From Mucilaginibacter aquatilis (GTDB taxonomy: Bacteria; Bacteroidota; Bacteroidia; Sphingobacteriales; Sphingobacteriaceae): 64,000 bases of DNA. The position numbers and the translations under genes were made by a program. The notes beneath the pieces are model-generated. The model worked only from the letters and a program-made list of their open reading frames with translations. It was not told the origin of the DNA and made no database searches. The DNA is taken from assembly GCF_009755275.1 (NCBI RefSeq), contig NZ_WQLA01000004.1, positions 62,001 to 126,000 of the forward strand, read 5' to 3'. Position 1 is the first letter of the stretch. Each line of letters opens with the position of its first letter. This document shows, piece after piece, positions 3,837-54,058 of this stretch.

Positions 3837-4625
3837 ATGAATATTGCTCTTGAGGTTTGCGCTAACTCTGTAGAATCAGCCATTGCTGCCGAAAAGGGCG
3901 GCGCCACACGTATCGAATTATGTGACAACCTTCATGAAGGCGGCACAACGCCATCCTACGGACAAATAAAAGTTACTTTAAATAAAGTTAATATACCTGT
4001 ACATGTACTGCTCAGGCCGCGTACCGGCGACTTTTTATACTCTGCTGCAGAGTATGAGGTGATGAAAGAAAATTTAAAGATGGCTGCTCAACTAGGCGCG
4101 CATGCTATAGTAACCGGCATGCTGCACCCCAACGGAACCATTGATAAAGTGAGGTGTAAAGAGCTGGTACAAATGGCAAAAGATGCAGGCATGAAAGCAA
4201 CTTTTCACCGCGCTTTTGATCTTTGCGCAGATATGTTTCAGGCATTGGAAGAAATTATTGAAATGGGGTATGATTGTATACTTACCTCAGGCAGTAAAAC
4301 AACTGCAATTGAAGGCGCCAGTAAGATAGCTCAACTCATACAAAAAGCAAACGGGCGTATATGCATAATGCCCGGCGGCGGTGTGAGCGAATATAATGTG
4401 AATGACCTGGTGCACTTTACCGGTGCCACAGAAATTCATTCATCGGCACGCAAAATTCGTAAAACGGGCATGCTTTATATGAATGAAAATATATTGTTAG
4501 GACGTAGCGTAGGCAAAGATTACGATATAGACGAAACCGATGCAGGCCGCGTACGCTCGATAATTGAAAAAGCTAACGAACCATACCCCTTGCTAAAAGA
4601 TACTCAGGGGCAGTATGAGGCCTAA
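3837..4625 (+). CDS. cutC: CutC family protein
   Basis: A 262-residue TIM-barrel protein of the CutC family, named for copper homeostasis in E. coli although a direct copper role is disputed. Family marks are the opening MNIALEVCANSVESA, GGATRIELCDNL, the HVLLRPRTGDF strand, ATFHRAFD and the end motif IMPGGGV. No signal peptide, so cytoplasmic. Its last 33 bases overlap the 3' end of the convergent gene on the other strand, with no room for a terminator between them. Confidence 0.92.
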   Translation: MNIALEVCANSVESAIAAEKGGATRIELCDNLHEGGTTPSYGQIKVTLNKVNIPVHVLLRPRTGDFLYSAAEYEVMKENLKMAAQLGAHAIVTGMLHPNGTIDKVRCKELVQMAKDAGMKATFHRAFDLCADMFQALEEIIEMGYDCILTSGSKTTAIEGASKIAQLIQKANGRICIMPGGGVSEYNVNDLVHFTGATEIHSSARKIRKTGMLYMNENILLGRSVGKDYDIDETDAGRVRSIIEKANEPYPLLKDTQGQYEA

Positions 4626-7427
4626 CCTATTACGACCGTTTCCTCCAAACAAATCTTCATCCATCAAACGCGTATACCGCAGGCCAAATGTTATGGAGCT
4701 TTGATTAAACCATTGGGTATCAAAATATAGCTCTGCTCCTGCCGATTTAAAATCTGCTTTAAACGTTGTGCCGTTTCGGTAAAAATCAGTACCACGGGTG
4801 TAGTCATAAAATACACTTCCGCGCAGGCGCATAACGTATAATAAGTTTCCAAAGCCTGCATCAGGGTACGCTACCGGGAAATGATAGCTTATTCCGGCTT
4901 TGTATAAACGATATAAGTTATCAGCTGTATAACCGCGCGAAAACGGCAACTGATTAGAGAAAAAGCTGTAAGCCCTATCTCGGCGCTGATGAGCTGCATT
5001 AATTACAATACTGTGCGTTGGTAGTATACCAGGAAAATAAAAAGTACCGGATGCTAACCATTGATGCGCACTTAAGCTGTTTATAGTATTACGATAGCTC
5101 AGCGTTACACTTTGCGCAAGCCGCGGATTTATTAGTTGATAGGGCTTGGCAATTTGATTGTTGAAAGTGAATGAATTATTTAAGTAAGTATAATTAGGAA
5201 GTGAACTTCTGAATGCCTGTTGTTTAACATCATTCATACTTAAATTAACGCTGCTTGTGAAGGTAAGGCGCGTATAGTTTCTGCCACCGGCAAAAAGCAG
5301 TGGCACCTGAATGCCGGTTTGCAACCTTGTCTCGTTCCAGTTTACTTCAACTACATTGCGGTTGGCGTCAAAGCCGTAGTCGCGCCGGTCTAGCGTGTAA
5401 TCAACCCTGCCAAACAGGTAAGGAAAAAAGGCGCCATAAGTAGTATTAAAACTTAATTGTTTATATCCTTCATTACGGTTATAACCAAAGGAAAGCTCAG
5501 TTTGCAGGGTATTCAAAATATTCTCTCCCATTAAAGATATACTGTAATCAGGGTCATCAATATTAGGAACCAGACTATGGAAGTTAAACGGATGAGTAAA
5601 CTTCGGATACTTTTTTGCAGGCGTGTCAGCTGGAGCCGCCGATGTAATCAAGTTACTGGCCGGTTCATTTTTCAGTGATGCAATATTGAAATCAGGTAAC
5701 TGCGATATTTCGGTAAATGGTTTCAAATAAAGATCTTTTTTATCTGCCTGGTGCAATTGATAACCAAATGCACTAAAACTCACCCACCCTACTTTATTTG
5801 TGCTTACAGCAGGCTGATAGTTGCCAATGTAATTACTAAGAGAGTCGCCTTGCAATTCATATACTTTACGGTCGGGTATGCTGATGGCAAACAGTTTGTC
5901 GTTAATGCCCGATGTTCCTGTGAAGTAAACTGTATCGCGCTGCAACACCGGAAATGCTTTCGGCGCTATGCCTTCGGGTGTAAGTTCGGTTAACTTTCCG
6001 CTTTCAACGTCAACTAACGCAATACTCATATTGCCCGATGTTTTACGGATAGCTGCAATAATCGAACTTTCAGAATAAAACTTGGGGTAAGTATAAAATA
6101 GCCCATTAGGATTGGGTACTTCTTTAATTAATACACCGTTAGCAGCATTTAATATATGTAAGGCATACTTGCCCGATGGCTGCACATCAACTGCAACAAT
6201 GCGGCTGTTATCAGCATTAAAGGCCGGAGCAAAATACTTGGTTTTATGAGTAACATTTTGCTGATAGCCGGTTGCCACGTCAACTATTTTAAGCTCATTA
6301 TATTCACGGTAGGTCCAGCGCGGATCAGGACGACGCGATGCATAAACAATCTTACCGTTGTTATACGTAAAGTAACCATCAACGGTAAAGTCCGATAGTC
6401 GTATTTTTCTTTCTTGGTCGCCTCGCCTTTCAACAAAGGTTGCCCGTTGCTTGTACGACGATTTCCGGTAGATAATAGTGCTGTCATCTACATAGGCAGG
6501 AAATTCCTGATTGCCGATAAAATGCTGATTGCTTTTGTATCGTGAGGCGCCTTTTTTTAATTCGGGACCTACCAGCTGCTGTTTGAAATAATTAAGCGCT
6601 GCGGTGCGATAGTCAGCGTAATTTTTGCCTGTGTAACGTTTTAATGCGCTTTGAAAAGGATAAACAAGTGTACGGTAAGCTGCTGCATCTCCATGAATTT
6701 TGCGCCAAACATCATCACCGTAAGTGTTTCTTCCGTAAGCAATCATCATATACCCTAACGGATACCAGTCGGGCACAAAGTCTAGATATGATCCGTTACG
6801 AAGCTTCATCCAGCTATAGTCTTTTCCGGCCGCCCATAAACTTCGATAGCCGTTGAAAAAGTAAGGTAGGCGGCCCCGTCCCTGGTTGGTTAAGTAGGTT
6901 TCATTATAAACGGCATCGCCCTCGGCAAACCAGTTTGGTACGGCAATACCATATCCCAAGGCCTGCCCGCCTTCTCCAAAAACAGCTTTTAAAAAAGCGG
7001 TTAATCCTACGTTGGAGTTATTGAATTGCTGAACGTGCCTGAATTCATGTATAGCCAGCTGATCGCCCACAGGTAAGCTACCTAATGAGAAACTGTTTTG
7101 TGCCGGTACAAGGTAAAACTCGCTTCTGAACGGTGCCAAACCAACGTAACCATTAGTAGTAATTAGCTGGTTTTGCAATACGATGTTTACTTTACGCTGC
7201 TTAAAGCCTATGGTTGGTTGGGTACTATGTTTGACATGATCAATTATGCCCGCTAACCGCCTTGCAATTGAATCCATACCCAACGGATATATTACCCTTG
7301 CCGCTGAATCATTGAGCTGATTCCATTTAAGTGAAGGTGGATTTCCGCCAAATTGCTGTGCATTTGCTCCCAACGCCATCAACACCAATGCTGCTATAAA
7401 TACACCACAAAACTTAGCCTTAATCAT
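4593..7427 (-). CDS. Exported metallopeptidase-like / beta-propeller / outer-membrane barrel protein
   Basis: A 944-residue protein with a Sec signal peptide (cleavage near ANAQ, residue 23). Residues about 30-290 contain HEFRH (127-131), a zinc HExxH motif, and Glu169 in NWFAEGDA 38 residues later, the layout of gluzincin (peptidase MA-like) metallopeptidases. Residues about 290-590 hold repeated short strands of the TolB/WD40-like propeller type (for example KIVYASRRPD, ISIALVDVESGKL-like blades). Residues about 600-944 are alternating aromatic strands ending in Phe, as in outer-membrane beta-barrels. I infer a surface-anchored peptidase whose barrel sits in the outer membrane. The substrate is unknown. 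It is transcribed alone, divergent from hscA and convergent with cutC. Confidence 0.7.
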   Translation of the reverse strand: MIKAKFCGVFIAALVLMALGANAQQFGGNPPSLKWNQLNDSAARVIYPLGMDSIARRLAGIIDHVKHSTQPTIGFKQRKVNIVLQNQLITTNGYVGLAPFRSEFYLVPAQNSFSLGSLPVGDQLAIHEFRHVQQFNNSNVGLTAFLKAVFGEGGQALGYGIAVPNWFAEGDAVYNETYLTNQGRGRLPYFFNGYRSLWAAGKDYSWMKLRNGSYLDFVPDWYPLGYMMIAYGRNTYGDDVWRKIHGDAAAYRTLVYPFQSALKRYTGKNYADYRTAALNYFKQQLVGPELKKGASRYKSNQHFIGNQEFPAYVDDSTIIYRKSSYKQRATFVERRGDQERKIRLSDFTVDGYFTYNNGKIVYASRRPDPRWTYREYNELKIVDVATGYQQNVTHKTKYFAPAFNADNSRIVAVDVQPSGKYALHILNAANGVLIKEVPNPNGLFYTYPKFYSESSIIAAIRKTSGNMSIALVDVESGKLTELTPEGIAPKAFPVLQRDTVYFTGTSGINDKLFAISIPDRKVYELQGDSLSNYIGNYQPAVSTNKVGWVSFSAFGYQLHQADKKDLYLKPFTEISQLPDFNIASLKNEPASNLITSAAPADTPAKKYPKFTHPFNFHSLVPNIDDPDYSISLMGENILNTLQTELSFGYNRNEGYKQLSFNTTYGAFFPYLFGRVDYTLDRRDYGFDANRNVVEVNWNETRLQTGIQVPLLFAGGRNYTRLTFTSSVNLSMNDVKQQAFRSSLPNYTYLNNSFTFNNQIAKPYQLINPRLAQSVTLSYRNTINSLSAHQWLASGTFYFPGILPTHSIVINAAHQRRDRAYSFFSNQLPFSRGYTADNLYRLYKAGISYHFPVAYPDAGFGNLLYVMRLRGSVFYDYTRGTDFYRNGTTFKADFKSAGAELYFDTQWFNQSSITFGLRYTRLMDEDLFGGNGRNRLGLILPLSIF

Positions 7428-7622: not shown

Positions 7623-9482
7623 ATGGCTAAAGTTTCCATCAACCTGGCAACGGGTTCATTGCAAAAGGAAGAAATTATTGTAGGAATTGATTTAGGTACC
7701 ACCAACTCGCTGGTAGCATTCATCAACCCCGAAAAAAACCCGCAGGTTATAAATGACGCAGGCAAGGGAGTGTTAGTGCCTTCGGTTGTGCATTTTGATA
7801 CCACAGGCACCATTACTGTAGGTAACGAGGCCAAAAATTACCTGGTTACAGACCCGCAAAACACTATATTTTCAGTTAAGCGTTTGCTGGGCCGCTCCTA
7901 TGGAGATATTGAAAATTACAAAGATTTTTTCTCATATAAAGTAATTGATGACAACACAGAAAGCCTTGTTAAGGTTAAAGTAGGCGATCGCTTTTACACC
8001 CCTATCGAACTATCTGGCTTAATATTAAAGGAACTGAAAGAGCGTGCAGAACACGCCCTAAAAACGCCTGTTAACCGCGCGGTGATTACCGTTCCTGCTT
8101 ACTTTAATGATTCGCAACGCCAAGCCACACGCGATGCTGGCAAACTTGCCGGGTTAGACGTTTTACGTATTGTAAATGAACCTACTGCCGCCAGCTTAGC
8201 CTACGGTATAGGGCTTAAGGCCGACGAAACTAAAACCATTGCAGTATACGATTTAGGCGGTGGCACATTTGACGTGTCTATACTGCAAATACAAAACGGC
8301 ATATTTGAGGTGTTAGCTACTAACGGCGACACCTTTTTGGGCGGAGATGATTTTGACCGGGCTATACTTGAATATTGGATTGAAAAAAACCAGTTGAACC
8401 GTACAGAACTTGCTGATAACCGCGAGTTGATGCAGCAGCTGCGCTTAAAGGCCGAAGAAGCTAAAAAAGCGTTTGCACATCAAAGCCTGTTTAATGAAAA
8501 AATTAGCGATATATGGTGTACGCTAGACCGCACTACATTTGAAGAACTGATTGCCCCTAAAGTTGAGCAAACCATTAAAGCCTGTACCAATGCGCTTACA
8601 GATGCAGGCTTAAGCATCAACGATATTGACGAGGTTATTATGGTTGGCGGATCTACCCGCACCGCTTTAGTTAAACGCCGCGTTGGCGATTACTTTGGCA
8701 AAACACCGCATGATGATGTGAACCCTGATGAGGTAGTTGCCCTTGGTGCTTCAATACAAGCCGACATTTTAGCAGGTAACCGTAAAGACATTTTACTGCT
8801 TGATGTAACCCCTCTATCATTGGGCATTGAAACTATGGGCGGTTTAATGGATGTGATTATTCCGCGTAATTCAAAGGTACCTACTAAAGCAGGCAGGCAG
8901 TACACTACCTCTGTCGATGGACAGGTGAATATGAAAATTTCTGTTTACCAGGGTGAACGTGATTTAGTTAAAGAAAACCGCAAACTGGCTGAATTTGATT
9001 TGAAAGGAATACCGGCTATGCCTGCAGGTTTCCCTAAAGTTGATATCAACTTTTTACTTAACGCCGATGGCATATTGAAAGTGCAAGCCATTGAATTACG
9101 CTCTGGTACTAAGCAGGAAGTTGACGTGAAGCCTGCTTACGGTATTACCGATGACCAGGTTGAACAAATGCTTATGGACAGCATTACGCATGCTAAAGAC
9201 GATGTGGCTCAACGTATGCTGATTGAAGCGCGTACCGAAGGTGAACAAATGGTTTATACCACTGAACGCTTCATAGAAAAGCACGGTGCACTACTAAGCG
9301 TTGCTGAAGTTAGCGGTACACACCAATATGTTGAGGCTTTGAAAGCTGCACTTACCAGCGGTGATAAAGACCTCATCCACAAAAAAATTGACGAGCTCAA
9401 TGAACTTACCCGCCCTTATGCCGAACGCGTGATGGACCAGGCTATTGCAACAGCCATGAAGGGTAAGAGTGTTGATGAATAA
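7623..9482 (+). CDS. hscA: HscA, Hsp70 chaperone for Fe-S cluster assembly
   Basis: Cytoplasmic Hsp70 of 619 residues. The ATPase domain (about 18-390) shows IVGIDLGTTNSLVA, YDLGGGTFDVSIL and VGGSTR; the substrate-binding domain follows with PLSLGIETMGG. The short N-terminal extension ending QKEEIIVGIDLG, the total length (E. coli HscA 616) and the absence of a long C-terminal lid tail ending EEVD-like favour HscA over DnaK. HscA helps move Fe-S clusters from the IscU scaffold to targets. No isc/suf, hscB or grpE gene is beside it, so it is an orphan copy. A strong terminator follows. Confidence 0.82.
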   Translation: MAKVSINLATGSLQKEEIIVGIDLGTTNSLVAFINPEKNPQVINDAGKGVLVPSVVHFDTTGTITVGNEAKNYLVTDPQNTIFSVKRLLGRSYGDIENYKDFFSYKVIDDNTESLVKVKVGDRFYTPIELSGLILKELKERAEHALKTPVNRAVITVPAYFNDSQRQATRDAGKLAGLDVLRIVNEPTAASLAYGIGLKADETKTIAVYDLGGGTFDVSILQIQNGIFEVLATNGDTFLGGDDFDRAILEYWIEKNQLNRTELADNRELMQQLRLKAEEAKKAFAHQSLFNEKISDIWCTLDRTTFEELIAPKVEQTIKACTNALTDAGLSINDIDEVIMVGGSTRTALVKRRVGDYFGKTPHDDVNPDEVVALGASIQADILAGNRKDILLLDVTPLSLGIETMGGLMDVIIPRNSKVPTKAGRQYTTSVDGQVNMKISVYQGERDLVKENRKLAEFDLKGIPAMPAGFPKVDINFLLNADGILKVQAIELRSGTKQEVDVKPAYGITDDQVEQMLMDSITHAKDDVAQRMLIEARTEGEQMVYTTERFIEKHGALLSVAEVSGTHQYVEALKAALTSGDKDLIHKKIDELNELTRPYAERVMDQAIATAMKGKSVDE

Positions 9483-11559: not shown

Positions 11560-13407
11560 ATGAGAAGAATTGTACTCTCGCTATTTTTTGTTCTTTCTGT
11601 TTTACTTAGCCAGGCAGCTGAAATAACCAGAGTTGAGCCATCATCATGGTGGACCGGCATGGTTAACAAGCAGCTTCAAATAATGGTTTATGGCAAACAG
11701 ATTGGGTTAAGCCGGTTAATTGTAAATTATTCAGGTGTAACTGTAAAAGAAGTTGCCCATACTGATAATCCAAATTATCTATTTGTTTATTTGAACATTG
11801 CGGATAACACCAAACCGGGCAACGTTAAGCTACAATTTAGACAAGGCAACAAAACGCTTACGCATAACTTTCCGTTGCTTGCACGTACAGCTACAGAAGG
11901 TGCAGCAGGTTTTAGTCAGGCCGATGTTATGTATCTGATAACTCCCGATCGTTTTGCAAATGCCAATGCGGCTAATGATGATTTAGATGGCGTTAAAGTA
12001 AATCGCGAAGACCCAAATGCACGCCATGGCGGTGATTTGGCCGGCATTGCTAAAAACATCAACTACATAAAAGATTTAGGCTTTACAACGGTATGGTTAA
12101 ACCCCGTACAGGAAAACCGCATGCCTGGTGGCTCCTATCACGGCTACGCCATCACCGACTTTTATAATATTGATCCGCGTTTTGGCACTAACAGTGAATT
12201 CAAAACCTTGACGGCTAACATGCACAAAAACGGCTTGAAGGTGGTAATGGATATGATTTTTAACCACTGCGGAAGCTCACATTGGTGGATGAATGACTTG
12301 CCTTCAAAGGACTGGATTAATAATAACTCTGGCAAATATGTACAAACCAACCATGCTAAGTACACTTTGATGGACCCACACGCTGCTGCCATCGATAAAG
12401 ATATTTTGATTAAAGGCTGGTTTGTTAAGGAGATGCCAGATTTAAATCAACGCAACAGGCACCTGGCTACTTATTTAATACAAAACAGCATATGGTGGAT
12501 CGAATTTGCATGTATAGACGGTATACGCCAGGATACATATCCCTACCCCGACTATAAGTTTATGGCCCGCTGGTGCCGCGAGGTACAAGCCGAATATCCG
12601 CAGTTTAACATCGTAGGCGAATCATGGTATGGCCGGTCATCGGCATCATCTTGGTGGCAACAAGGCTCTGTATTGAATAAGCAAGGCAAAACCGGGCTTA
12701 AAACTGTAATGGATTTTCCGCTTACTTTCATAACCTCAGGCGCTTTTGATTATCACAAAGATGATCGCACAGGTGAAGGAAGTCCTTTTTACAGCATATA
12801 CGAAGAGCTTGCTCAAGACTTTATGTTTCCTGACCAAAGCAACATTCTTACATTTTTAGATAACCACGATTTAGACCGCTTTGCCCGTGCAGACGACCAG
12901 GATCTTCGCCGCTATAAACAAGCGCTAGCCTTTTTACTAACCACAAGGGGTATTCCGCAAATTTACTATGGTACCGAAATTTTAATGGACGGTAAAAAAG
13001 CTAAAAGCGATGGCTACGTGCGTACCGACTTCCCTGGTGGCTGGAGCGGTGATAAAAATAATGCGTTTACCCCCGATGGCCGTAGTGATAAGCAAAACGA
13101 GGCCTGGAGTTACTTGCAAAAATTGCTTAAATGGCGTAAACAAAATGCGGCAATAGCAAACGGAAAGCTTGTACACTATGTCCCTGACGAAACCGGCGTG
13201 TATGTTTATGCACGTATAAGTGGCAAAAAAACTGTTTTGGTTATGCTAAATGGTAATAACTCAACCCGCCAAGTACCTATGGATAGGTATAAGCAAGTAG
13301 CCGGCAACCGAACGGAAGGCCTTGATATAATCACAGGCAATAAATTCAATATCACCAAGAGCATATCTGTGCCGGCCAGAGGGCAATTTATATTAGAATT
13401 AAATTAA
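11560..13407 (+). CDS. susA: SusA-like GH13 alpha-amylase / neopullulanase
   Basis: Periplasmic or surface glycoside hydrolase that cuts alpha-1,4 links in maltodextrins or cyclodextrins. Signal peptide residues 1-19; an N-terminal cyclomaltodextrinase-type Ig domain (about 20-110); the GH13 barrel with the nucleophile Asp325 (GIRQDTYPY), acid/base Glu354 (IVGESWY) and transition-state Asp437 (FLDNHDLDRF); and a C-terminal beta domain from about 530. Length 615 matches SusA of Bacteroides. It is the first gene of the starch locus and is separated from susC by 161 bp. Confidence 0.92.
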   Translation: MRRIVLSLFFVLSVLLSQAAEITRVEPSSWWTGMVNKQLQIMVYGKQIGLSRLIVNYSGVTVKEVAHTDNPNYLFVYLNIADNTKPGNVKLQFRQGNKTLTHNFPLLARTATEGAAGFSQADVMYLITPDRFANANAANDDLDGVKVNREDPNARHGGDLAGIAKNINYIKDLGFTTVWLNPVQENRMPGGSYHGYAITDFYNIDPRFGTNSEFKTLTANMHKNGLKVVMDMIFNHCGSSHWWMNDLPSKDWINNNSGKYVQTNHAKYTLMDPHAAAIDKDILIKGWFVKEMPDLNQRNRHLATYLIQNSIWWIEFACIDGIRQDTYPYPDYKFMARWCREVQAEYPQFNIVGESWYGRSSASSWWQQGSVLNKQGKTGLKTVMDFPLTFITSGAFDYHKDDRTGEGSPFYSIYEELAQDFMFPDQSNILTFLDNHDLDRFARADDQDLRRYKQALAFLLTTRGIPQIYYGTEILMDGKKAKSDGYVRTDFPGGWSGDKNNAFTPDGRSDKQNEAWSYLQKLLKWRKQNAAIANGKLVHYVPDETGVYVYARISGKKTVLVMLNGNNSTRQVPMDRYKQVAGNRTEGLDIITGNKFNITKSISVPARGQFILELN

Positions 13408-13488
13408 TCAATTATCCCCAATATGCATAGCAAATAACTGTACCTCAAACCTAACCAACCTAAACAAAAAACAATCGCAGTTTATGCA

Positions 13489-13507
13489 GGTAAGGCTTTG
13501 CCCTACC
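13489..13507 (+). other. Short hairpin in the susA-susC gap
   Basis: GGTAAGGC, loop TTT, GCCCTACC (8-bp stem with one mismatch) within the 161-bp gap, no T run after it. Perhaps an mRNA-processing or stability element that lets susC be expressed at a different level from susA; otherwise I see nothing in the gap. Confidence 0.25.
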
Positions 13508-13568
13508 CCATTATTTCAAACCAATTTTATTTAACCAACAAGGTTTTACAGCAAAAAACAAAAGTTGT

Positions 13569-16500
13569 ATGAGGAAGAACTATCTCAAAAATTATGCAAT
13601 GTTGTGCCTGCTGCTCTTTATTTCGAGCTTTGCATTCGCACAAACCGGGGGCATAACCGGTAAAGTAATCGACGAAAAAGGCGAAGCTTTGCCTGGTGTA
13701 AGTGTTGTTATCACTGGCACTACTCAAGGCACCGTTACCGGCCCCGACGGTGTTTACCGGATAAGTAATTTAAAAACCGGCAGCTACACTGTAGCAGCGC
13801 AATTTATAGGCTACGAAAAAATAAGTAAAGCTGTTACTGTAAGCGCCACAGCTATGGCAACTGCCAATTTCCAACTAGCGCCCGATAACAAGGCTTTGGG
13901 GGAAGTAGTAGTTATAGGTTACGGTACGCAAAACCGTAAAGAAGTAACAGGTGCAATATCAACCGTTTCATCAAAAGATTTTCAAAAGGGTACTACAACC
14001 ACACCTGCGGAATTGATTCAAGGTAAAATTGCTGGTGTATCAGTTAGTACCAACAGCGGCCAGCCGGGTGCAGGCGCTACTATACGTATACGTCAGGGTG
14101 CTTCGCTAAACGCCAGCAACGATCCTTTGATTGTAATTGATGGTGTACCAGTGAGTAACAATGCCATTTCGGGTGCTTCAAACCCATTGGCGTTGATCAA
14201 TCCTGATGACATTGAAACATTTACCGTATTAAAAGATGCCTCGTCAACCGCTATTTACGGTTCAAGGGCATCAAATGGTGTAATTTTAATTACTACAAAA
14301 AAAGGCACTGCCGGTACACCACAGTTTACCTTTTCAACCAAAAATGCCATAGCATCAATGCGTAATAAAATTGACGTATTATCGGCTGATGAAGTACGCA
14401 ACTATATTCGTAATTATGATGCTGCAAATGGTACCAACCGCTCATCATTTTTGGGTAATGCCAATACCGACTGGCAAAACGAAATCTATCAAAAAGCTTT
14501 TACATCTGATAATAACTTTAGTGTATCAGGCACTACCCACAAACTTCCTTACCGTGTTTCGGTTGGATATTTAGATGCTAACGGTTTACTTAAAACCGAC
14601 CGTTTGCAGCGTACCACTGCAGCAATTCGTTTAAGTCCTAAGTTTTTCAATGACGCCTTAAAACTTGATTTTAACGTAAACGGAACTTATGCTAAAAGCC
14701 GTTTTGGCAATCAGGATGCCATTGGTGCATCAATTGCATTTGACCCTACGCAACCTGTTTACAAAACCGGCAGCCCTTTTAACGGCTATAACGAGTGGTA
14801 TAACACAACTGCTGATGGCACTGTGGTGCTTAACCCTAACGCACCACGCAACCCGGTAGCACTGTTAAATGATAAATCAGACATATACAATGCCTACCGC
14901 AGCTTCGGTAATTTCACTGCCGACTATCGTTTTCCTTTCTTAACCGGCTTAAGGGCTAATTTGAATTTAGGTTACGATTTATCAAAAAGTGGTGGCAGCG
15001 TATTTGTTCCTGCTACAGCGGCCCAAGCCTATGCTAATGCCGGATCTAGCTACCAGTCACATCAAAAAAATTACAACACAACCGGCGAGTTTTATTTAAA
15101 CTATGTAACCGATCTTAAATCAATTAAAAGCAATATCAATGCAACTGCCGGTTATGGTTACTACGATTTCCGTACGGTAAACCGCAATTATCCTCGCTAC
15201 AACGCAGCGGGTGGCTTGTTAGCCGGTTCAACCCCTGTGTTTGCCTTTGATGTTCCGCAATACACGCTCGAATCATACTACGGACGTTTAATCTACACTT
15301 TTGACACCAAATACATATTTGCAGGTTCAATTCGTACAGATGGTGTTTCTCGCTTTTCACCAACCGAGCGTTGGGGTGTATTTCCGTCGGCTGCCTTTAC
15401 CTGGCGCATTAGTGACGAGGACTTCCTGAAAACTTCAAAAACTGTATCTGATTTAAAACTACGCGTGAGCTACGGTATAACCGGTCAGCAGGATTTGGGT
15501 AACGATTACCTGTACCGCTATTTGCCTACCTACTTTGTGAGTAACAACGACTCTAAATACCAGTTTGGCAACCAGTTTTATAATATGTATACCCCATCAT
15601 TCTATGATTCAAACTTAAGATGGGAAACAACAGCTACTACCAACGTTGGCTTCGACTTTGGATTCCTGAACCAGCGTATAAGCGGTAGCGTTGATGCCTA
15701 TTATAAAAACACTAAAGACCTGTTATCATACATATTCCTGCCTGCAGGTACCAACTTTACCAACGGTTTGGTTACCAACGTAGGTAACATGGTAAACCGT
15801 GGTATTGAATTGAACTTAAACTTTGTTCCGGTAAAAACTCAGGACATTAACTGGACAGTGAACTACAACATTGCTTACAATCATAACAAAATCACCAACC
15901 TTTCTGCCACAGGTGTAAATGACAGCTCGGTAGGTAATGCAGTAGGCGGTATTACAGGTGGTACAGGTACAAATGTGCAAATACAATCCGTAGGTTATTC
16001 GCCAAATGCATTTTATGTATACCAACAGGTTTATGATCAAAAAACAGGCAAGCCGCTACAAGGCGTATTTGTTGATCAAAACAAAGATGGTGTAATCAAC
16101 AACAGCGATTTATATCATTACAAATCGCCTTTCCCTAAATACATTATGGGTTTCAGCACCAACTTTAACTATAAAAAATGGTCGGCCTCTACTGTATTAC
16201 GTGCAAACATTGGCAATTACATGTATAACAACGTTGCATCCAATCTTGGCACTCAAAATACCATCATTAGCACTGCAGGCAACTTAAATAATAATGCCAG
16301 CCGCGATTTGCTTAATACCGGCTTTACCAACAGCACTTATCTGTCAGATTATTACGTACAAAACGCATCATTCCTGCGCATGGATAACGTTGGGCTTAAC
16401 TACAATTTTGGTAATATTTTTAAAGGACGCGGCTTAAAGCTAAATGTTGGCGCCAACGTGCAAAACGTATTCGTGCTAACCAAGTATAAAGGTCTTGACC

Positions 16501-16580
16501 CTGAAATATCAGGTGGTATAGATAACAAATTTTATCCTCGCCCGCGCACTTATACCTTGAGTTTAAACCTTGGCTTTTAA
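13569..16580 (+). CDS. susC: SusC-like TonB-dependent outer-membrane transporter
   Basis: A 1003-residue TonB-dependent porin for oligosaccharide import. Order: signal peptide (to about residue 25, ending FAFAQ), a carboxypeptidase-regulatory-like domain (ITGKVIDEKGEALPGVSVV), the TonB box region EVVVIGYGTQ, the plug with DPLIVIDGVPV and YGSRASNGVILITTK, then the 22-strand barrel ending in NLGF. It works with SusD, which lids the barrel. Located between the GH13 enzyme and SusD; the substrate is therefore inferred to be starch-derived maltooligosaccharide. Confidence 0.95.
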   Translation: MRKNYLKNYAMLCLLLFISSFAFAQTGGITGKVIDEKGEALPGVSVVITGTTQGTVTGPDGVYRISNLKTGSYTVAAQFIGYEKISKAVTVSATAMATANFQLAPDNKALGEVVVIGYGTQNRKEVTGAISTVSSKDFQKGTTTTPAELIQGKIAGVSVSTNSGQPGAGATIRIRQGASLNASNDPLIVIDGVPVSNNAISGASNPLALINPDDIETFTVLKDASSTAIYGSRASNGVILITTKKGTAGTPQFTFSTKNAIASMRNKIDVLSADEVRNYIRNYDAANGTNRSSFLGNANTDWQNEIYQKAFTSDNNFSVSGTTHKLPYRVSVGYLDANGLLKTDRLQRTTAAIRLSPKFFNDALKLDFNVNGTYAKSRFGNQDAIGASIAFDPTQPVYKTGSPFNGYNEWYNTTADGTVVLNPNAPRNPVALLNDKSDIYNAYRSFGNFTADYRFPFLTGLRANLNLGYDLSKSGGSVFVPATAAQAYANAGSSYQSHQKNYNTTGEFYLNYVTDLKSIKSNINATAGYGYYDFRTVNRNYPRYNAAGGLLAGSTPVFAFDVPQYTLESYYGRLIYTFDTKYIFAGSIRTDGVSRFSPTERWGVFPSAAFTWRISDEDFLKTSKTVSDLKLRVSYGITGQQDLGNDYLYRYLPTYFVSNNDSKYQFGNQFYNMYTPSFYDSNLRWETTATTNVGFDFGFLNQRISGSVDAYYKNTKDLLSYIFLPAGTNFTNGLVTNVGNMVNRGIELNLNFVPVKTQDINWTVNYNIAYNHNKITNLSATGVNDSSVGNAVGGITGGTGTNVQIQSVGYSPNAFYVYQQVYDQKTGKPLQGVFVDQNKDGVINNSDLYHYKSPFPKYIMGFSTNFNYKKWSASTVLRANIGNYMYNNVASNLGTQNTIISTAGNLNNNASRDLLNTGFTNSTYLSDYYVQNASFLRMDNVGLNYNFGNIFKGRGLKLNVGANVQNVFVLTKYKGLDPEISGGIDNKFYPRPRTYTLSLNLGF

Positions 16581-16605
16581 CCCATAAAAGAAGAGAAGAG
16601 AAGAA

Positions 16606-18198
16606 ATGAAAAAGAATATATGGAAAAATCTGGGTATTGCTGTTATAGTTTCAGCTGCCTTGGTATCCTGCAAAAAAGATTTAGACCGTACACCTACCAA
16701 TGCTACTACAGCTGATGATGTGTACGCTACCCCAATAGGCTACAAGCAATCGCTTGCAAAGGTGTACGGCGCGTTTGCTTTAACCAGTAGCGTAGGTGCC
16801 GATAAATCAGATTTAGGCGGTATTGATGCCGGTACGTCTGACTTTATCCGCTTATACTGGAGTGCCCAGGAATGGACCACTGAAGAAGCTATTTGTGCAT
16901 GGAATAATACAGATGTACCTGATTTCCATAACCTGAACTGGGGACCTAATAACACCTTGCTAAATGGTTTGTACAACCGTTGTATTTATCAAATTACGGT
17001 AGCCAATGCTTTCATTCGCGAATCTACAGATGAAAAGCTGGCCAACCGAGGCATTACCGGTGCCGATGCTGATAACGCACGTAAATACCGCGCCGAAGCG
17101 CGTTTCTTACGGGCTTATCAATACTGGGTATTGATGGATTTATTTGGCAATCCGCCTTATGTTGATGAAACAACACCTATTGGCAAATACCTGCCTGAGC
17201 AAATTACACGTGCCCGGTTATTTGCCTACATAGAGTCAGAATTGAAAGGTATTGAAAGTTCACTGGCAGCACCACGCCAAAACGAATACGGCAGGGCTGA
17301 TCAGGCTGCCGCCTGGGCATTGCTTGCACGTATGTATTTGAATGCTGAAGTGTATTTAGGTAATGGAAATGCAAAATATGGCGATGCTATAACTTACGCC
17401 AATAAGGTAATTGGTGCAGGTTACACCCTAATGCCAAGCTACCAACGATTGTTTATAGCCGATAACAACCTCAATAACACCGAAACCATTTTATCGGTAA
17501 ACTATGATGGTGTTAACACCCAAAACTACGGCGGTACTACTTATATCATCAATGCGGCAATAAACTCAGATATGAACCCGGCTAGCTTTGGTGTACCAAG
17601 TGGTGGCTGGGGCGGTAACCGCAGTACGCGCAATTTACCTTTGCTATTTACCGACCGTACCGGTACTACAGACAAACGCGCTTTGTTTTACGGCAATAAC
17701 CAGGAGGTTAACAATGTAAATGATTTTACACAAGGTTTAGCCGTAACCAAGTTTAAAAACACTTTACAAAACGGTACAGCAGCACCATCAACCGGTGGCA
17801 CTTACTGCTCAACCGACTTCCCATTATTCCGCCTGGCCGAAATGTATTTGATTTATGCTGAAGCGACACTACGTGGTGGCGCGGGTGGTAACGCAGCAAC
17901 TGCGCTACAGTATATAAACGCTTTACGTACACGTGCTTATAGCGGCACACCTGCAGGTAACCTTACTTCAATAAACTTAAACAGCATACTTGATGAGCGT
18001 GGGCGTGAGTTGTACTGGGAAGGTTTCCGTCGTACCGATTTAATTCGTTATGGCCTGTTTACCTCGGGCACATACTTATGGCCATGGAAAGGCGGCATAC
18101 GTGACGGCCGTGGTGTTGAATCATTCCGCACCCTTTTCCCAATACCAAGCAGCGATTTAAACAACAACCCTAATTTGAAACAAAACACAGGTTATTAA
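16606..18198 (+). CDS. susD: SusD-like surface glycan-binding lipoprotein
   Basis: A 530-residue RagB/SusD lipoprotein: signal peptide with lipobox VSC then KKDLDRTP. TPR-like helices with RAEARFLRAYQYWVLMDLFGNPPYVDE (characteristic SusD core, cited in part), and the C-terminal RGRELYWEGFRRTDLIRYG motif. It captures oligosaccharide at the surface and closes over SusC. It lies 25 bp after susC in the same operon. Confidence 0.95.
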   Translation: MKKNIWKNLGIAVIVSAALVSCKKDLDRTPTNATTADDVYATPIGYKQSLAKVYGAFALTSSVGADKSDLGGIDAGTSDFIRLYWSAQEWTTEEAICAWNNTDVPDFHNLNWGPNNTLLNGLYNRCIYQITVANAFIRESTDEKLANRGITGADADNARKYRAEARFLRAYQYWVLMDLFGNPPYVDETTPIGKYLPEQITRARLFAYIESELKGIESSLAAPRQNEYGRADQAAAWALLARMYLNAEVYLGNGNAKYGDAITYANKVIGAGYTLMPSYQRLFIADNNLNNTETILSVNYDGVNTQNYGGTTYIINAAINSDMNPASFGVPSGGWGGNRSTRNLPLLFTDRTGTTDKRALFYGNNQEVNNVNDFTQGLAVTKFKNTLQNGTAAPSTGGTYCSTDFPLFRLAEMYLIYAEATLRGGAGGNAATALQYINALRTRAYSGTPAGNLTSINLNSILDERGRELYWEGFRRTDLIRYGLFTSGTYLWPWKGGIRDGRGVESFRTLFPIPSSDLNNNPNLKQNTGY

Positions 18199-49372: not shown

Positions 49373-51019
49373 CTACCTACCATAGCCTGGGTTTTGCGGA
49401 AAAGGAGCATCGCGGTTGGCATCAATTATGGTTTGTGGTATTGGCCACAATATATTGTTTGATGTTATTTTATCGCGGATGGCGCCATTGTATGCTTTTA
49501 CCCTATCAACCAATTTGTTAGTACGTACAAGTGTAAATCTGCGGCTCTCCTCACCTGCCAGTTCACGGATGCGTTCATCAAGTAAAAAATCCATGTTCAT
49601 CTGTGCACCTGTAACGGTTGAAGCGCCTGCTCTTTTACGTACCTCATTCACGGCATCAGCTGCTTTTTGCGGATTGTTTTGCCCCAGGCAAGCTTCAGCA
49701 AGCAGCAAATAGGTCTCTGCTAAACGAAACTTCATGCGATCTTTATAGCTGCCGGTTAAGCTTAAGTTTTCGGCACGACCGTAAAAGAATTTGGTTATAG
49801 TTGGGAACAAGCTTTTGGTAGAAAACCAGGTTTGCTCGGTTATACTGGCTTTTTTACCATTTAAAGCAGCATCATTTGGGTTGTTATAGTACCAGTTGCG
49901 TTTAATATTGTAATTAGAATTACGAATATCTGAGGCCTCAAAAATACCTGCCACATTACCAGATGCATTGGTGCCATTAGTACCTACCCACCATTTCATC
50001 GGTACCAATTGAGCTAAACCACGGCCACCTAATGTGTCGGCCAAAACGAAGCCGCTAATGTCGGGGTATTTTGGAATCCAGGCGCGGCGGGTCCAATCGT
50101 CGGAGTTTGTACCACCACCAATAGCATTAAATTCAAACTGCAGCACCCAAATGCTTTCGCGGTTACCGTTCTTTAATCTGTTTTGATTGTTCTCTACAAA
50201 CAAGTCACTGAATACATCTCCGGGCTTGTCTTTACCTGCACCAAAACGAGTTTTCATGAGGCTGTAGTTGCCGCTGTTTATAACTGAAAGTGCTGCTTGT
50301 TCAGCCAGCTGGTACTCGCCCTGCATGAGGTACATTTCGCTTAGCAGGTGATTGGCAGCCCATTTAGTAACCTTACCTTCTTTAACCTGATCAGGATTTG
50401 CCGGCAGGTTCTCTGCTGCAAACTTCAAATCATCAACAATATGACCTATCACTTCAGCTTTCGGCGTGCGTGTAAAGTTCAGCTTAAAATCATATAGAAT
50501 GGTTTCAACATAAGGTACATCACCATAAAGGTAAACCAGCGTGCGGTAAGCATAAGCTCTAAAAAATTTTGCCTCGGCCTGGAAGCGTACCTTATCAGAG
50601 GGCGAATCCCAGTTGGTGTTTTTTTCTGAATACACCAGCATTAAGTTGGCCGATGAAATTAAGCTGTAAGCCCAATTCCAATATGAACCAACAAAGCGTT
50701 CGGCCGGTGTGAGTGTTAAGTTTGCAAATGCCATTAATGAGGCATCGCTGTTTATTACGTCGGCAATATCAGTTGCGGCCTGTAAGGCTTCATAAGGGCA
50801 TGCACCATTATGTAGAAAGGCGCCGCCCTCACCAAAAGTGTTATATTCTGACCGGGTTAGTGCGTACAAACCTGCACTACCTACCTCAAAACCATATGTA
50901 CTTGTAAATGTATTTGTTGGAGCTAGTTCAGTTTTCAGCTCCTCATCTAAAAATTTTTTACACCCGCCTAATGAGATGAGCACAATAAGCGTAAAGCTTG
51001 CTTTTATAAATTTATTCAT
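49373..51019 (-). CDS. SusD-like glycan-binding lipoprotein (second locus)
   Basis: A 548-residue RagB/SusD lipoprotein: lipobox GGC (Cys20), then KKFLDEELKT. SusD core motifs AEAKFFRAYAYRTLVYLYGDVPYVE (cited in part) and the C-terminal LLDERIRELAGEESRRFTLVRT. It pairs with the SusC protein encoded 18 bp upstream to bind and import an oligosaccharide of the second locus. Confidence 0.95.
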   Translation of the reverse strand: MNKFIKASFTLIVLISLGGCKKFLDEELKTELAPTNTFTSTYGFEVGSAGLYALTRSEYNTFGEGGAFLHNGACPYEALQAATDIADVINSDASLMAFANLTLTPAERFVGSYWNWAYSLISSANLMLVYSEKNTNWDSPSDKVRFQAEAKFFRAYAYRTLVYLYGDVPYVETILYDFKLNFTRTPKAEVIGHIVDDLKFAAENLPANPDQVKEGKVTKWAANHLLSEMYLMQGEYQLAEQAALSVINSGNYSLMKTRFGAGKDKPGDVFSDLFVENNQNRLKNGNRESIWVLQFEFNAIGGGTNSDDWTRRAWIPKYPDISGFVLADTLGGRGLAQLVPMKWWVGTNGTNASGNVAGIFEASDIRNSNYNIKRNWYYNNPNDAALNGKKASITEQTWFSTKSLFPTITKFFYGRAENLSLTGSYKDRMKFRLAETYLLLAEACLGQNNPQKAADAVNEVRKRAGASTVTGAQMNMDFLLDERIRELAGEESRRFTLVRTNKLVDRVKAYNGAIRDKITSNNILWPIPQTIIDANRDAPFPQNPGYGR

Positions 51020-51037
51020 GTTACGTGTGTTTTGCCG

Positions 51038-54000
51038 TTAAAAATTTACGTTTAAACCAAACATCAGTAATCGTGCGGTTGGATATGAGGCCATCCAGGT
51101 ATTGTCATAATTGAGTACCTGCCTAATGTTAGAGAAAGTGTAAAGGTTGTTTACACTCAGATTAGTTTCGATACCACTTACGCCTAGTTTTTTCACAATA
51201 TTTTGAGGTATGCGGTACCCAAACGTTATGTTTTTAACTTGAACATAGTTTACCTTTTTGTAGAAACCGTGACCAAAGCCGTTATTGTACCCCGGAGATA
51301 CAATGGTTGCACCTGGGTTTTCAGGAGTCCAGTAATTAGCATTATGCACGTAATTGGTTATTCCAAATGTCCACGACCCTAGGTTGGCCATGTTATCATC
51401 ACGCCATACACCAAAGGTTCCGGTGAGCAAGGCTGATAAATAGAAGTCTTTGTAAGTGAACCTGTTTGCTAACGATGCCGTGTAGCGGGGCATTCTTGAG
51501 CCGATTATCTTACGGTCGGCGGCGTTAATAAAACCATTACCATCAACATCCTCTAACTTGGCCGAACCGGGAGCAGCACCGGTTTGTGCTTCACGCTGAC
51601 TGCCATTTGCATCGGTATAAAAATACTGGTCGCCACGCTGCCATATGCCAACCATGTTATAATCGTAAAATACACGTAGCGGCTTTCCTATAAACCAGTT
51701 ATTATTTATGTCATCAAGCCCATCGCCACGCAACTCTATAATTTTGTCCCGGTCAAATGAAAAAACAGCAGTTGTGTTCCACTTGAAATTTTTGTTGTTG
51801 ATGTTTGTCGTATTTAAGGTTAGCTCTAAACCCTGGTTTTGGGTTTCGCCAACGTTGTCCCATATACGGCTGTAGCCGTTCATGATGGGCACTGTACGGG
51901 TCATCAACAAATCTTTTGTGCGCGAACGGTAAAAGTCTAGGCTACCGCTTACACGGTTGTTGAATAGTTGAAAATCAACACCAATATTTCCTGTATAAGT
52001 GGTTTCCCATTTCAGGTTAGGGTTACCCACACCATCGCCTGCAAGATACGCGGTGTTAACGGCGGTACCGCCATCGCCCCAGATGTATTTAACGTTTGAA
52101 TACAAACGATCAAGCGTGCGGTAAGGCGTAATAGCTTGGTTACCATTAGCACCATATGAAAGGCGTAATTTTAACATGTTTAGCCAGCTAACCTTATTCT
52201 TCAAAAAGCTTTCCTCGCCAATGTGCCAGGCTAATGCAGCTGATGGGAAAAACGCGTATTTATTGTTAACCCCGAATACTGAAGCACCATCAGAACGACC
52301 TGTAAGTGTGGCTATATACTTTCCTCTAAATGAATAATTTAGTCGCCCCATGTATGAAAGCAATGCAGTTTCAGACAAGCTTGAGGTATTAGATATATTA
52401 CGCGCAGCTGTGTTCATCATAAAATAGCTCGTTTCGTCGGTTACGAAGCCTTCGCCAGTTTGTGATGAGCCTGTACTTTTGGTTTGCTGCATACTGAAAA
52501 GTCCGGTGGCATCAAAGCGGTGCTCACCTACCTGGCGTTCATATTTCAGTATGTTCTCCCAGGTGTAATCATTATAATGATTGTTGCTGATGGTTGCCCG
52601 CCCGCCTACTAAGCCGGCCTGCTCCCGACCGTCGAAGGTATCGCGGCCATAATATGTTCCTGTAAAACCGCTACGGTAATTAAAACCGTAATTTGACCGG
52701 AACGACAAGCCTTTAACCGGTAGCAAAATATTTGCGTAGCCTGAAAGGAAGAAATTACGGTTAATCCGGTCCTGATCGGCATTCACATTACGCATCGGAT
52801 TTACTATCAGTGAGTATTCCATTGGTTCGGGAATATAATAACCCGATGCATCTATGTACTTACCATAGGGACTTTGCTTAATAGCATGCTCGATGTTAGG
52901 TTGCACACCGCCATCGCTACGCTGGGTAAACTGTGTACCAATGCCAATGGTAAGCCATTTGTTAAAAGTTTGATCAATGTTGGCTGTGATGTTGATACGG
53001 GTAAGTTTAGAATTGTAAACAACCCCATCTTGCTTTAAAGCAGCCGCCGAAGCCAAATATTTGGTACTCTCGGTACCACCCGAGATGCTTAATTGATGAT
53101 CGGTAGTGATAGCCCGCCGGAAAATGTAGCTCTGCCAGTCGTTAGTGATGCCTTTTAAATAGTTATCACGCTCCGACACTGATATTATTCCACCTGCAAT
53201 TGGGTCAAGCGCATCACCACTGTAATTTTCCCTCAAACGGCCAATATCCTGCTGAAAACGAATAAACTCATTTGGTCCCATCACGTCTATGCGCTGCATA
53301 GGCTCGGCCACACCTACCTGGCCACGGTATGTAACCTGCGGCTTACCAACCATACCACGTTTAGTTTGAATGAGGATTACCCCGTTTGAGCCGCGAGAGC
53401 CATAGATGGCTACTGCTGAGGCGTCTTTTAACACCGTTATGTTTTCTACGTTGTTCGGATCAATATCCACCAATGAGCCGCTGTATGGAATATTGTCTAA
53501 TACAATTAAGGGTGAATTATTGGCAGAAAGCGAGTTTTCACCGCGTATAAGTAACGACTGATCCTGACCCGGAGCTGCATTTGTAGTGGTAATGTTAAAA
53601 CCTGCAACCTGACCAACTAACCTATCCATTAGGTTTGGAGTAGATACCAGGCTTAACTGCTCTTTACCTACCACAGCTAAACCGCCGGTAAGGTCTTTCT
53701 TTTTGGCCGAGCCATAGCCTACAACAACCATTTGGTCGAGCACTTTATCACCGGCCATAGTTACATTTACTACACCCGACGATCCTACTTTTACCTCCTG
53801 GGCATCGAAACCAACATAGGTAAAAACTAATGTGGCACCCGCAGGAGCTTGTAGAGTGTAGTGGCCATCGGCATCTGTTTGGGTACCGTTATTGCTTCCC
53901 TTAACAATAACTGATACGCCAATTAACGCTGCTTTGCCCGAATCAGTAACCTTACCTGTAACTTTGATGTTATTTTGTGCAAAGCCATAACCGGCCGCCA

Positions 54001-54058
54001 GCATTAGCATAATGAGCATAAGCCAGCTTTTAAGTTCTTTGTATAATTCTTTTCTCAT
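51038..54058 (-). CDS. SusC-like TonB-dependent transporter (second locus)
   Basis: A 1006-residue TonB-dependent transporter. Signal peptide to about residue 27 (ending GFAQ), carboxypeptidase-regulatory-like domain (VTGKVTDSGKAALIGVSVIVKG), TonB box region DQMVVVGYGSAKKKDLTGG, plug with SPLIVLDNIPYSG and YGSRGSNGVILIQTK, and the barrel ending GLNVNF. It is the first gene of a minus-strand block. The 516-bp spacer upstream carries direct and inverted repeats but no consensus promoter that I can see. Confidence 0.95.
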   Translation of the reverse strand: MRKELYKELKSWLMLIMLMLAAGYGFAQNNIKVTGKVTDSGKAALIGVSVIVKGSNNGTQTDADGHYTLQAPAGATLVFTYVGFDAQEVKVGSSGVVNVTMAGDKVLDQMVVVGYGSAKKKDLTGGLAVVGKEQLSLVSTPNLMDRLVGQVAGFNITTTNAAPGQDQSLLIRGENSLSANNSPLIVLDNIPYSGSLVDIDPNNVENITVLKDASAVAIYGSRGSNGVILIQTKRGMVGKPQVTYRGQVGVAEPMQRIDVMGPNEFIRFQQDIGRLRENYSGDALDPIAGGIISVSERDNYLKGITNDWQSYIFRRAITTDHQLSISGGTESTKYLASAAALKQDGVVYNSKLTRINITANIDQTFNKWLTIGIGTQFTQRSDGGVQPNIEHAIKQSPYGKYIDASGYYIPEPMEYSLIVNPMRNVNADQDRINRNFFLSGYANILLPVKGLSFRSNYGFNYRSGFTGTYYGRDTFDGREQAGLVGGRATISNNHYNDYTWENILKYERQVGEHRFDATGLFSMQQTKSTGSSQTGEGFVTDETSYFMMNTAARNISNTSSLSETALLSYMGRLNYSFRGKYIATLTGRSDGASVFGVNNKYAFFPSAALAWHIGEESFLKNKVSWLNMLKLRLSYGANGNQAITPYRTLDRLYSNVKYIWGDGGTAVNTAYLAGDGVGNPNLKWETTYTGNIGVDFQLFNNRVSGSLDFYRSRTKDLLMTRTVPIMNGYSRIWDNVGETQNQGLELTLNTTNINNKNFKWNTTAVFSFDRDKIIELRGDGLDDINNNWFIGKPLRVFYDYNMVGIWQRGDQYFYTDANGSQREAQTGAAPGSAKLEDVDGNGFINAADRKIIGSRMPRYTASLANRFTYKDFYLSALLTGTFGVWRDDNMANLGSWTFGITNYVHNANYWTPENPGATIVSPGYNNGFGHGFYKKVNYVQVKNITFGYRIPQNIVKKLGVSGIETNLSVNNLYTFSNIRQVLNYDNTWMASYPTARLLMFGLNVNF

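Follow-up and report, generated by a model that had tools for sequence, protein, structure and literature searches.

A predicted zinc peptidase, TolB-like propeller, and Omp85-like barrel joined in a single chain encoded by Mucilaginibacter aquatilis

The window analyzed here, a 64,000-nucleotide stretch of the Mucilaginibacter aquatilis genome, carries on its reverse strand a gene of 944 codons plus a stop (positions 4593 to 7427), which reads from an ATG start as one uninterrupted open reading frame. The original prediction described its product as a 944-residue protein combining an HEFRH motif and a downstream glutamate (Glu169) with a TolB-like propeller and a C-terminal barrel, and we confirmed the residues, strand, and length. 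The closest homologues in named genomes are Mucilaginibacter proteins with 92% protein identity. A signal peptide (residues 1–24; positions 7356 to 7427, reverse strand, as for all features of this gene below) ends in GANA, immediately ahead of QQFGG, and lacks a lipobox cysteine; the mature start, AQ-x-FGGNPP, is conserved among homologues.

On its upstream side, the gene diverges from an Hsp70-type chaperone gene at position 7623. It lies tail-to-tail with a CutC-type gene ending at position 4625, and the two 3′ ends overlap by 33 bases (4593 to 4625). A scan of the upstream region with a simple Bacteroidota promoter consensus gave no decisive match, PADLOC gave no credible match to a defense function, and comparison of neighborhoods across families revealed no conserved operon partner. 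The hsp70, cutC, and asparaginase-like neighbors are conserved within Mucilaginibacter only; Chitinophagaceae copies have valS or ribosomal genes as neighbors, and other Sphingobacteriaceae copies have tgt, an lptF/G-like permease gene, and an EamA-like gene. Because the neighborhood is conserved only in close relatives and no partner is kept across families, it points to no substrate or pathway, and a function read from gene neighborhood was rejected. In several Chitinophagaceae (loci L053, L062, L072, L096, and L099), a gene for an exported protein of ∼1600 residues, which resembles a PKD-repeat surface protein, adjoins or lies near the gene on either strand. Elsewhere in the window, two SusC/SusD-like gene pairs (11560 to 18198, with a GH13-type amylase gene upstream, and 49373 to 54058, judged by size and order only) suggest polysaccharide utilization loci.

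The full chain was modeled with AlphaFold on a 54-sequence alignment, yielding a mean pLDDT of 87.6 and a pTM of 0.86. In this model the N-terminal domain (residues 25–295; 6543 to 7355) adopts a mixed fold in which HEFRH (residues 127–131; 7035 to 7049) lies on a helix spanning residues 120–136 and E169 (6921 to 6923), set within the sequence WFAEGDAV, lies on a long helix (165–179) that follows a helical hairpin. The domain thereby presents the HExxH helix and the glutamate on a following helix that characterize the gluzincins of clan MA. E169 is the predicted third zinc ligand because it is invariant and aligns with the glutamate of WLAEGTA in Peptidase_MA_2 relatives; it also opens a family signature, EGDAVxxETxxxxxGRGR (residues 169–186; 6870 to 6923), that is nearly invariant across the family. 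Modeled in isolation, the domain reached a pLDDT of 80.6, and its 50 best Foldseek matches in the PDB were mostly the peptidase domains of M9 collagenases G, H, and T together with M1 aminopeptidases, at modest scores (best E of 4.7e-4, TM of 0.4–0.5). The model and these matches support the gluzincin fold around HEFRH that the original prediction expected.

The central module (residues 303–575; 5703 to 6521) is modeled as a TolB-like β-propeller of six four-stranded blades (residues 306–570) and contains an invariant R370. The TolB model TIGR02800 matches residues 358–484 (E = 2.3e-5) at 23.5 bits, far under its equivalog cut-off of 343 bits, and TolB sequences in the PDB are matched both by the single sequence (E = 7e-7) and by a profile (E = 2e-18). 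A variable linker (residues 576–614; 5586 to 5702), with a mean pairwise identity of 0.18 and no invariant residue, leads to a C-terminal barrel (residues 615–944; 4596 to 5585) that ends in LPLSIF. Omp85 barrels have 16 strands, periplasmic N- and C-termini, and, linking strands 11 and 12, an L6 loop exposed to the exterior. The barrel of the window protein is likewise predicted to have 16 strands (residues 616–938), and a long loop (817–839) between strands 11 and 12 (806–816 and 840–853) carries the sequence SRGY (residues 830–833; 4929 to 4940) at the position of the (V/I)RG(F/Y) motif of L6. A Foldseek search of the PDB with the full model ranked TolB first and also found the BamA proteins of E. 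coli and F. johnsoniae. Peptidase-only and barrel-only profiles found no match among PDB sequences. No POTRA domain is present, residues 25–614 being taken up by peptidase, propeller, and linker. On these models, the division of the protein into a peptidase, a six-bladed propeller, and a 16-strand barrel is very probably correct, and the expectations that a barrel closes the chain and that it anchors the protein in the outer membrane are both borne out by the predicted Omp85-like fold.

Pfam gave no curated match to the 944-residue protein, neither for the peptidase nor for the barrel, and NCBIfam detected the propeller only. The Peptidase_MA_2 model (PF13485) scored one of 24 family members (E = 0.029) and did not match the window protein; neither PF01103 nor solved BamA matched the family barrel by sequence. 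The window group is too divergent for the Pfam Omp85 and Peptidase_MA_2 models, but Pfam assigns Peptidase_MA_2 and PD40 to longer proteins of 1029 to 1140 residues, plus Omp85 in one of them. Compared over its full length, the profile of the window family aligns with one group of these longer proteins, designated A4, across 897 columns (Prob 100, E = 4.3e-52). The peptidase alone aligns with Peptidase_MA_2 relatives with the zinc ligands aligned (Prob 99, E = 3e-18), and the barrel alone aligns with Omp85-containing relatives (Prob 46, E = 2e-4) with the RGY loop and a Phe-x-Asp strand in register. By sequence alone the link of the barrel to Omp85 is weak. The profile alignments as a whole indicate that the window family is homologous to the Peptidase_MA_2-PD40-Omp85 proteins and is not a one-off fusion. 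The longer proteins (∼1030–1140 residues) share the module order of the window protein and differ from it in carrying WxAEGTAQY..WDTHRD after the third ligand and in lacking EGDAVxxET and GRGR. A second protein of this kind, 1077 residues long, is encoded in the same genome outside the window (L171:546–3779; G000:C9, ∼200,045–203,278). Pfam finds Peptidase_MA_2 and PD40 in it, and it contains the motifs HELVH..PLWMIEGMAEY, LIRGYES, and FFDAG; against the window family profile its propeller alone aligns significantly, and its barrel is assigned from the RGY and FFDAG motifs only.

Conservation across the family centers on the putative active site. HEFRH and E169 are conserved beyond chance: no sequence departs from H127, E128, H131, or E169 in either a diverse alignment of 24 members (sharing 22–39% identity with the query) or a second alignment of 54. 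The residues invariant in the 24 diverse members include R130, G170, D171, A172, E176, G183, R184, G185, S213, Y222, and G225 in addition to these four, and 20 of 27 invariant residues fall within the catalytic core (residues 92–225). Mean pairwise identity is 0.45 in this core, compared with 0.25 in the propeller and 0.25 in the barrel. Among 151 distinct homologues, which were selected by the EG[D/I]A/GRG motif such that only the HExxH part of the tally is independent, HExxH lies 33–37 residues ahead of EG[D/I]A in 150; the sole exception, L086, is a frame-broken contig. A distant group (L141–L147) keeps HELVH, EGxAVxxE[T/S], and GRG in a looser form of the signature. Taken with L155–L156, this group (L141–L147 and L155–L156; ∼960–1010 residues) shows these motifs together with a PD40 propeller and comes from genomes of the phylum outside the class of the window organism; a protein of 1090–1140 residues matching the propeller profile is present in many of them as well. 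The L6 motif is strong in near relatives (R831 in 49/54 and G832 in 53/54) and partly lost in far ones, R831 being absent from 9 of the 24 diverse members. Because the catalytic site is the best conserved region of the chain, selection appears to keep the enzyme, and, judged from these alignments, the zinc peptidase is likely to be active.

Within the Sphingobacteriaceae, the protein occurs in 111 of 121 genomes, almost always in single copy. Across the class Bacteroidia, counted with a peptidase-only profile, it occurs in 72 of 396 genomes (E < 1e-65, one copy each), spanning 42 of 195 genera. The original prediction placed such a protein in every cell, which these class-wide counts show to be too broad, and since most sampled Bacteroidia genomes lack it, a universal housekeeping role is excluded. 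The Bacteroidia matches sit in reading frames of at least 906 residues, with the exception of one genome (G746; open frame of 279 residues), and the peptidase domain is essentially never found alone in these 72 genomes. Two families beyond the class, f19 and f24, likewise contain full-length members. A phylum-wide count of 345 of 392 genomes was rejected as a measure of distribution because many of its matches cover the propeller only. Far from the rarity that had been supposed, the chain thus belongs to a widespread single-copy family, with WD40-Omp85 relatives (PMC4104836) and a distant member in which Pfam recognizes Peptidase_MA_2, PD40, and Omp85 together. The family, which belongs to the Bacteroidota, is real, large, and well conserved, and the group of its relatives is known but without a described function.

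In the protein tree (window gene; L014–L015, L017–L030, and L091–L108), the copies from Mucilaginibacter and genus g3 nest among Chitinophagaceae copies, apart from those of other Sphingobacteriaceae. The latter are of a distant type, which shares ∼28% identity and has a spacing between the zinc ligands that is shorter by four residues. Two copies occur in one genome (G067). This placement suggests either replacement by transfer or an old duplication followed by loss.

Sixteen predicted strands and an SRGY loop between strands 11 and 12 place the N-terminal modules in the periplasm, and we regard a periplasmic position of peptidase and propeller as probable, by analogy with Omp85 topology and with PlpD, an enzyme-Omp85 protein whose enzyme domain was shown to remain periplasmic (PMC11116518). 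The original prediction instead implied a surface position, and in this reading the peptidase would be displayed on, or released from, the cell through the barrel in the manner of an autotransporter. In its favor, the protein is exported, and early work on PlpD, as cited in PMC4104836, proposed surface display or release for a comparable enzyme-Omp85 chain; nevertheless, the PlpD enzyme domain was later found in the periplasm only (PMC11116518), and a folded peptidase-propeller unit of ∼570 residues would need to pass through the barrel. Together with the predicted strand number and position of L6, these considerations make surface display decidedly unlikely.

We favor, with a probability of roughly 60%, an Omp85-anchored, periplasm-facing gluzincin (MA) zinc peptidase that would trim envelope proteins or remove them. 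The protein would be exported by Sec and its barrel inserted by BAM, serving mainly as an anchor, with the N-terminal modules standing where POTRA domains would otherwise be. Peptidase and propeller would hang beneath the outer membrane in the periplasm, the propeller perhaps acting as a substrate receptor or gate, and the zinc site would cut envelope proteins near the barrel, either outer-membrane or surface proteins that are misfolded or unassembled, or precursors destined for trimming. In tethered form, such an enzyme would parallel BepA and similar quality-control peptidases of the periplasm, although we give envelope protein quality control or processing as its actual job only an even chance. 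The main rival is an active barrel with the peptidase as its processing arm, namely a chimeric assembly or translocation machine in which the barrel inserts or moves substrates, the propeller takes the part of a receptor akin to BamB or TolB, and the peptidase trims whatever the barrel handles. Protein assembly or translocation is what most Omp85 barrels of known role carry out (BamA, TamA, and FhaC among them), and near relatives largely retain the RGY motif; a likeness to a BamA-BamB fusion has moreover been proposed for the WD40-Omp85 proteins (PMC4104836). Yet conservation in the barrel and propeller falls far below that of the peptidase site, the arginine of the RGY motif is not kept throughout the diverse members, the chain has no POTRA domain, and PlpD provides a case of an Omp85 barrel merely anchoring an enzyme (PMC11116518), all of which make this machine unlikely. 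In its boldest form, in which an Omp85 machine brings its own protease, substrates would be captured by the propeller and cut at the gluzincin site, and the barrel would insert or export the product, giving the Bacteroidota and their relatives a self-contained unit of their own for processing and assembly; this form, too, we consider unlikely to hold. A non-enzymatic scaffold, in which the peptidase fold would have been retained for binding while the chain organized the envelope through its TolB-like propeller, has some precedent in that the folds of the clan include dead members, and one Foldseek match was a TFIID complex entry (7edx). The invariance of all zinc ligands and of the catalytic glutamate, in the best conserved region of the chain, renders the scaffold very improbable.

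If the favored reading of a tethered periplasmic peptidase is true, the Bacteroidota, with their many large and complex outer-membrane proteins, gain a membrane-tethered enzyme for processing or quality control. PlpD is a case in which an Omp85 barrel has been shown to anchor a periplasmic enzyme, and a zinc peptidase would add proteolysis to what such barrels carry.

Among described proteins, the nearest likeness is to the WD40-Omp85 subfamily, in which a TolB-like propeller lies ahead of an Omp85 barrel and which was described among Omp85 proteins of unknown function (Heinz and Lithgow, 2014; PMC4104836). The same authors described the WD40, Metallo, and noNterm Omp85 subfamilies as non-POTRA and proposed that the WD40-Omp85 proteins resemble a fusion of BamA with BamB (PMC4104836). 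As in the window protein, the propeller is joined straight to the barrel without a POTRA domain. The window protein differs in that an intact gluzincin domain precedes the propeller, whereas the text on WD40-Omp85 proteins in PMC4104836 names the propeller and no peptidase. Going by its description, the published cluster likely includes the window family, which has the TolB-like propeller fused to an Omp85-like barrel. No report of a function for the WD40-Omp85 group after its description in 2014 turned up in literature searches, in agreement with the earlier statement that such a chain has no described function. BamP, from the BAM complex of F. johnsoniae, was considered as a relative and rejected, being a different protein restricted to the Flavobacteriaceae.

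The individual modules recall other systems. PlpD and the patatin-Omp85 proteins (type Vd-like) resemble the window protein in placing an N-terminal hydrolase on an Omp85 barrel, but PlpD carries a lipase rather than a peptidase, has one POTRA domain and no propeller, and forms a homodimer. TolB shares the six-bladed propeller with significant sequence similarity but is a soluble periplasmic protein without peptidase or barrel. The catalytic domains of M9 collagenases and M1 aminopeptidases are the closest solved folds, without a sequence match, and the window peptidase is set apart from them by the gap of 33–37 residues between HExxH and the third ligand, the invariant arginine in HExRH, and membrane anchoring. 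Finally, BepA (M48) is alike in proposed role only, as a zinc peptidase near outer-membrane protein assembly, a likeness that is conjecture; it belongs to another fold family and is soluble, whereas the enzyme described here would be tethered to the outer membrane through its C-terminal barrel.
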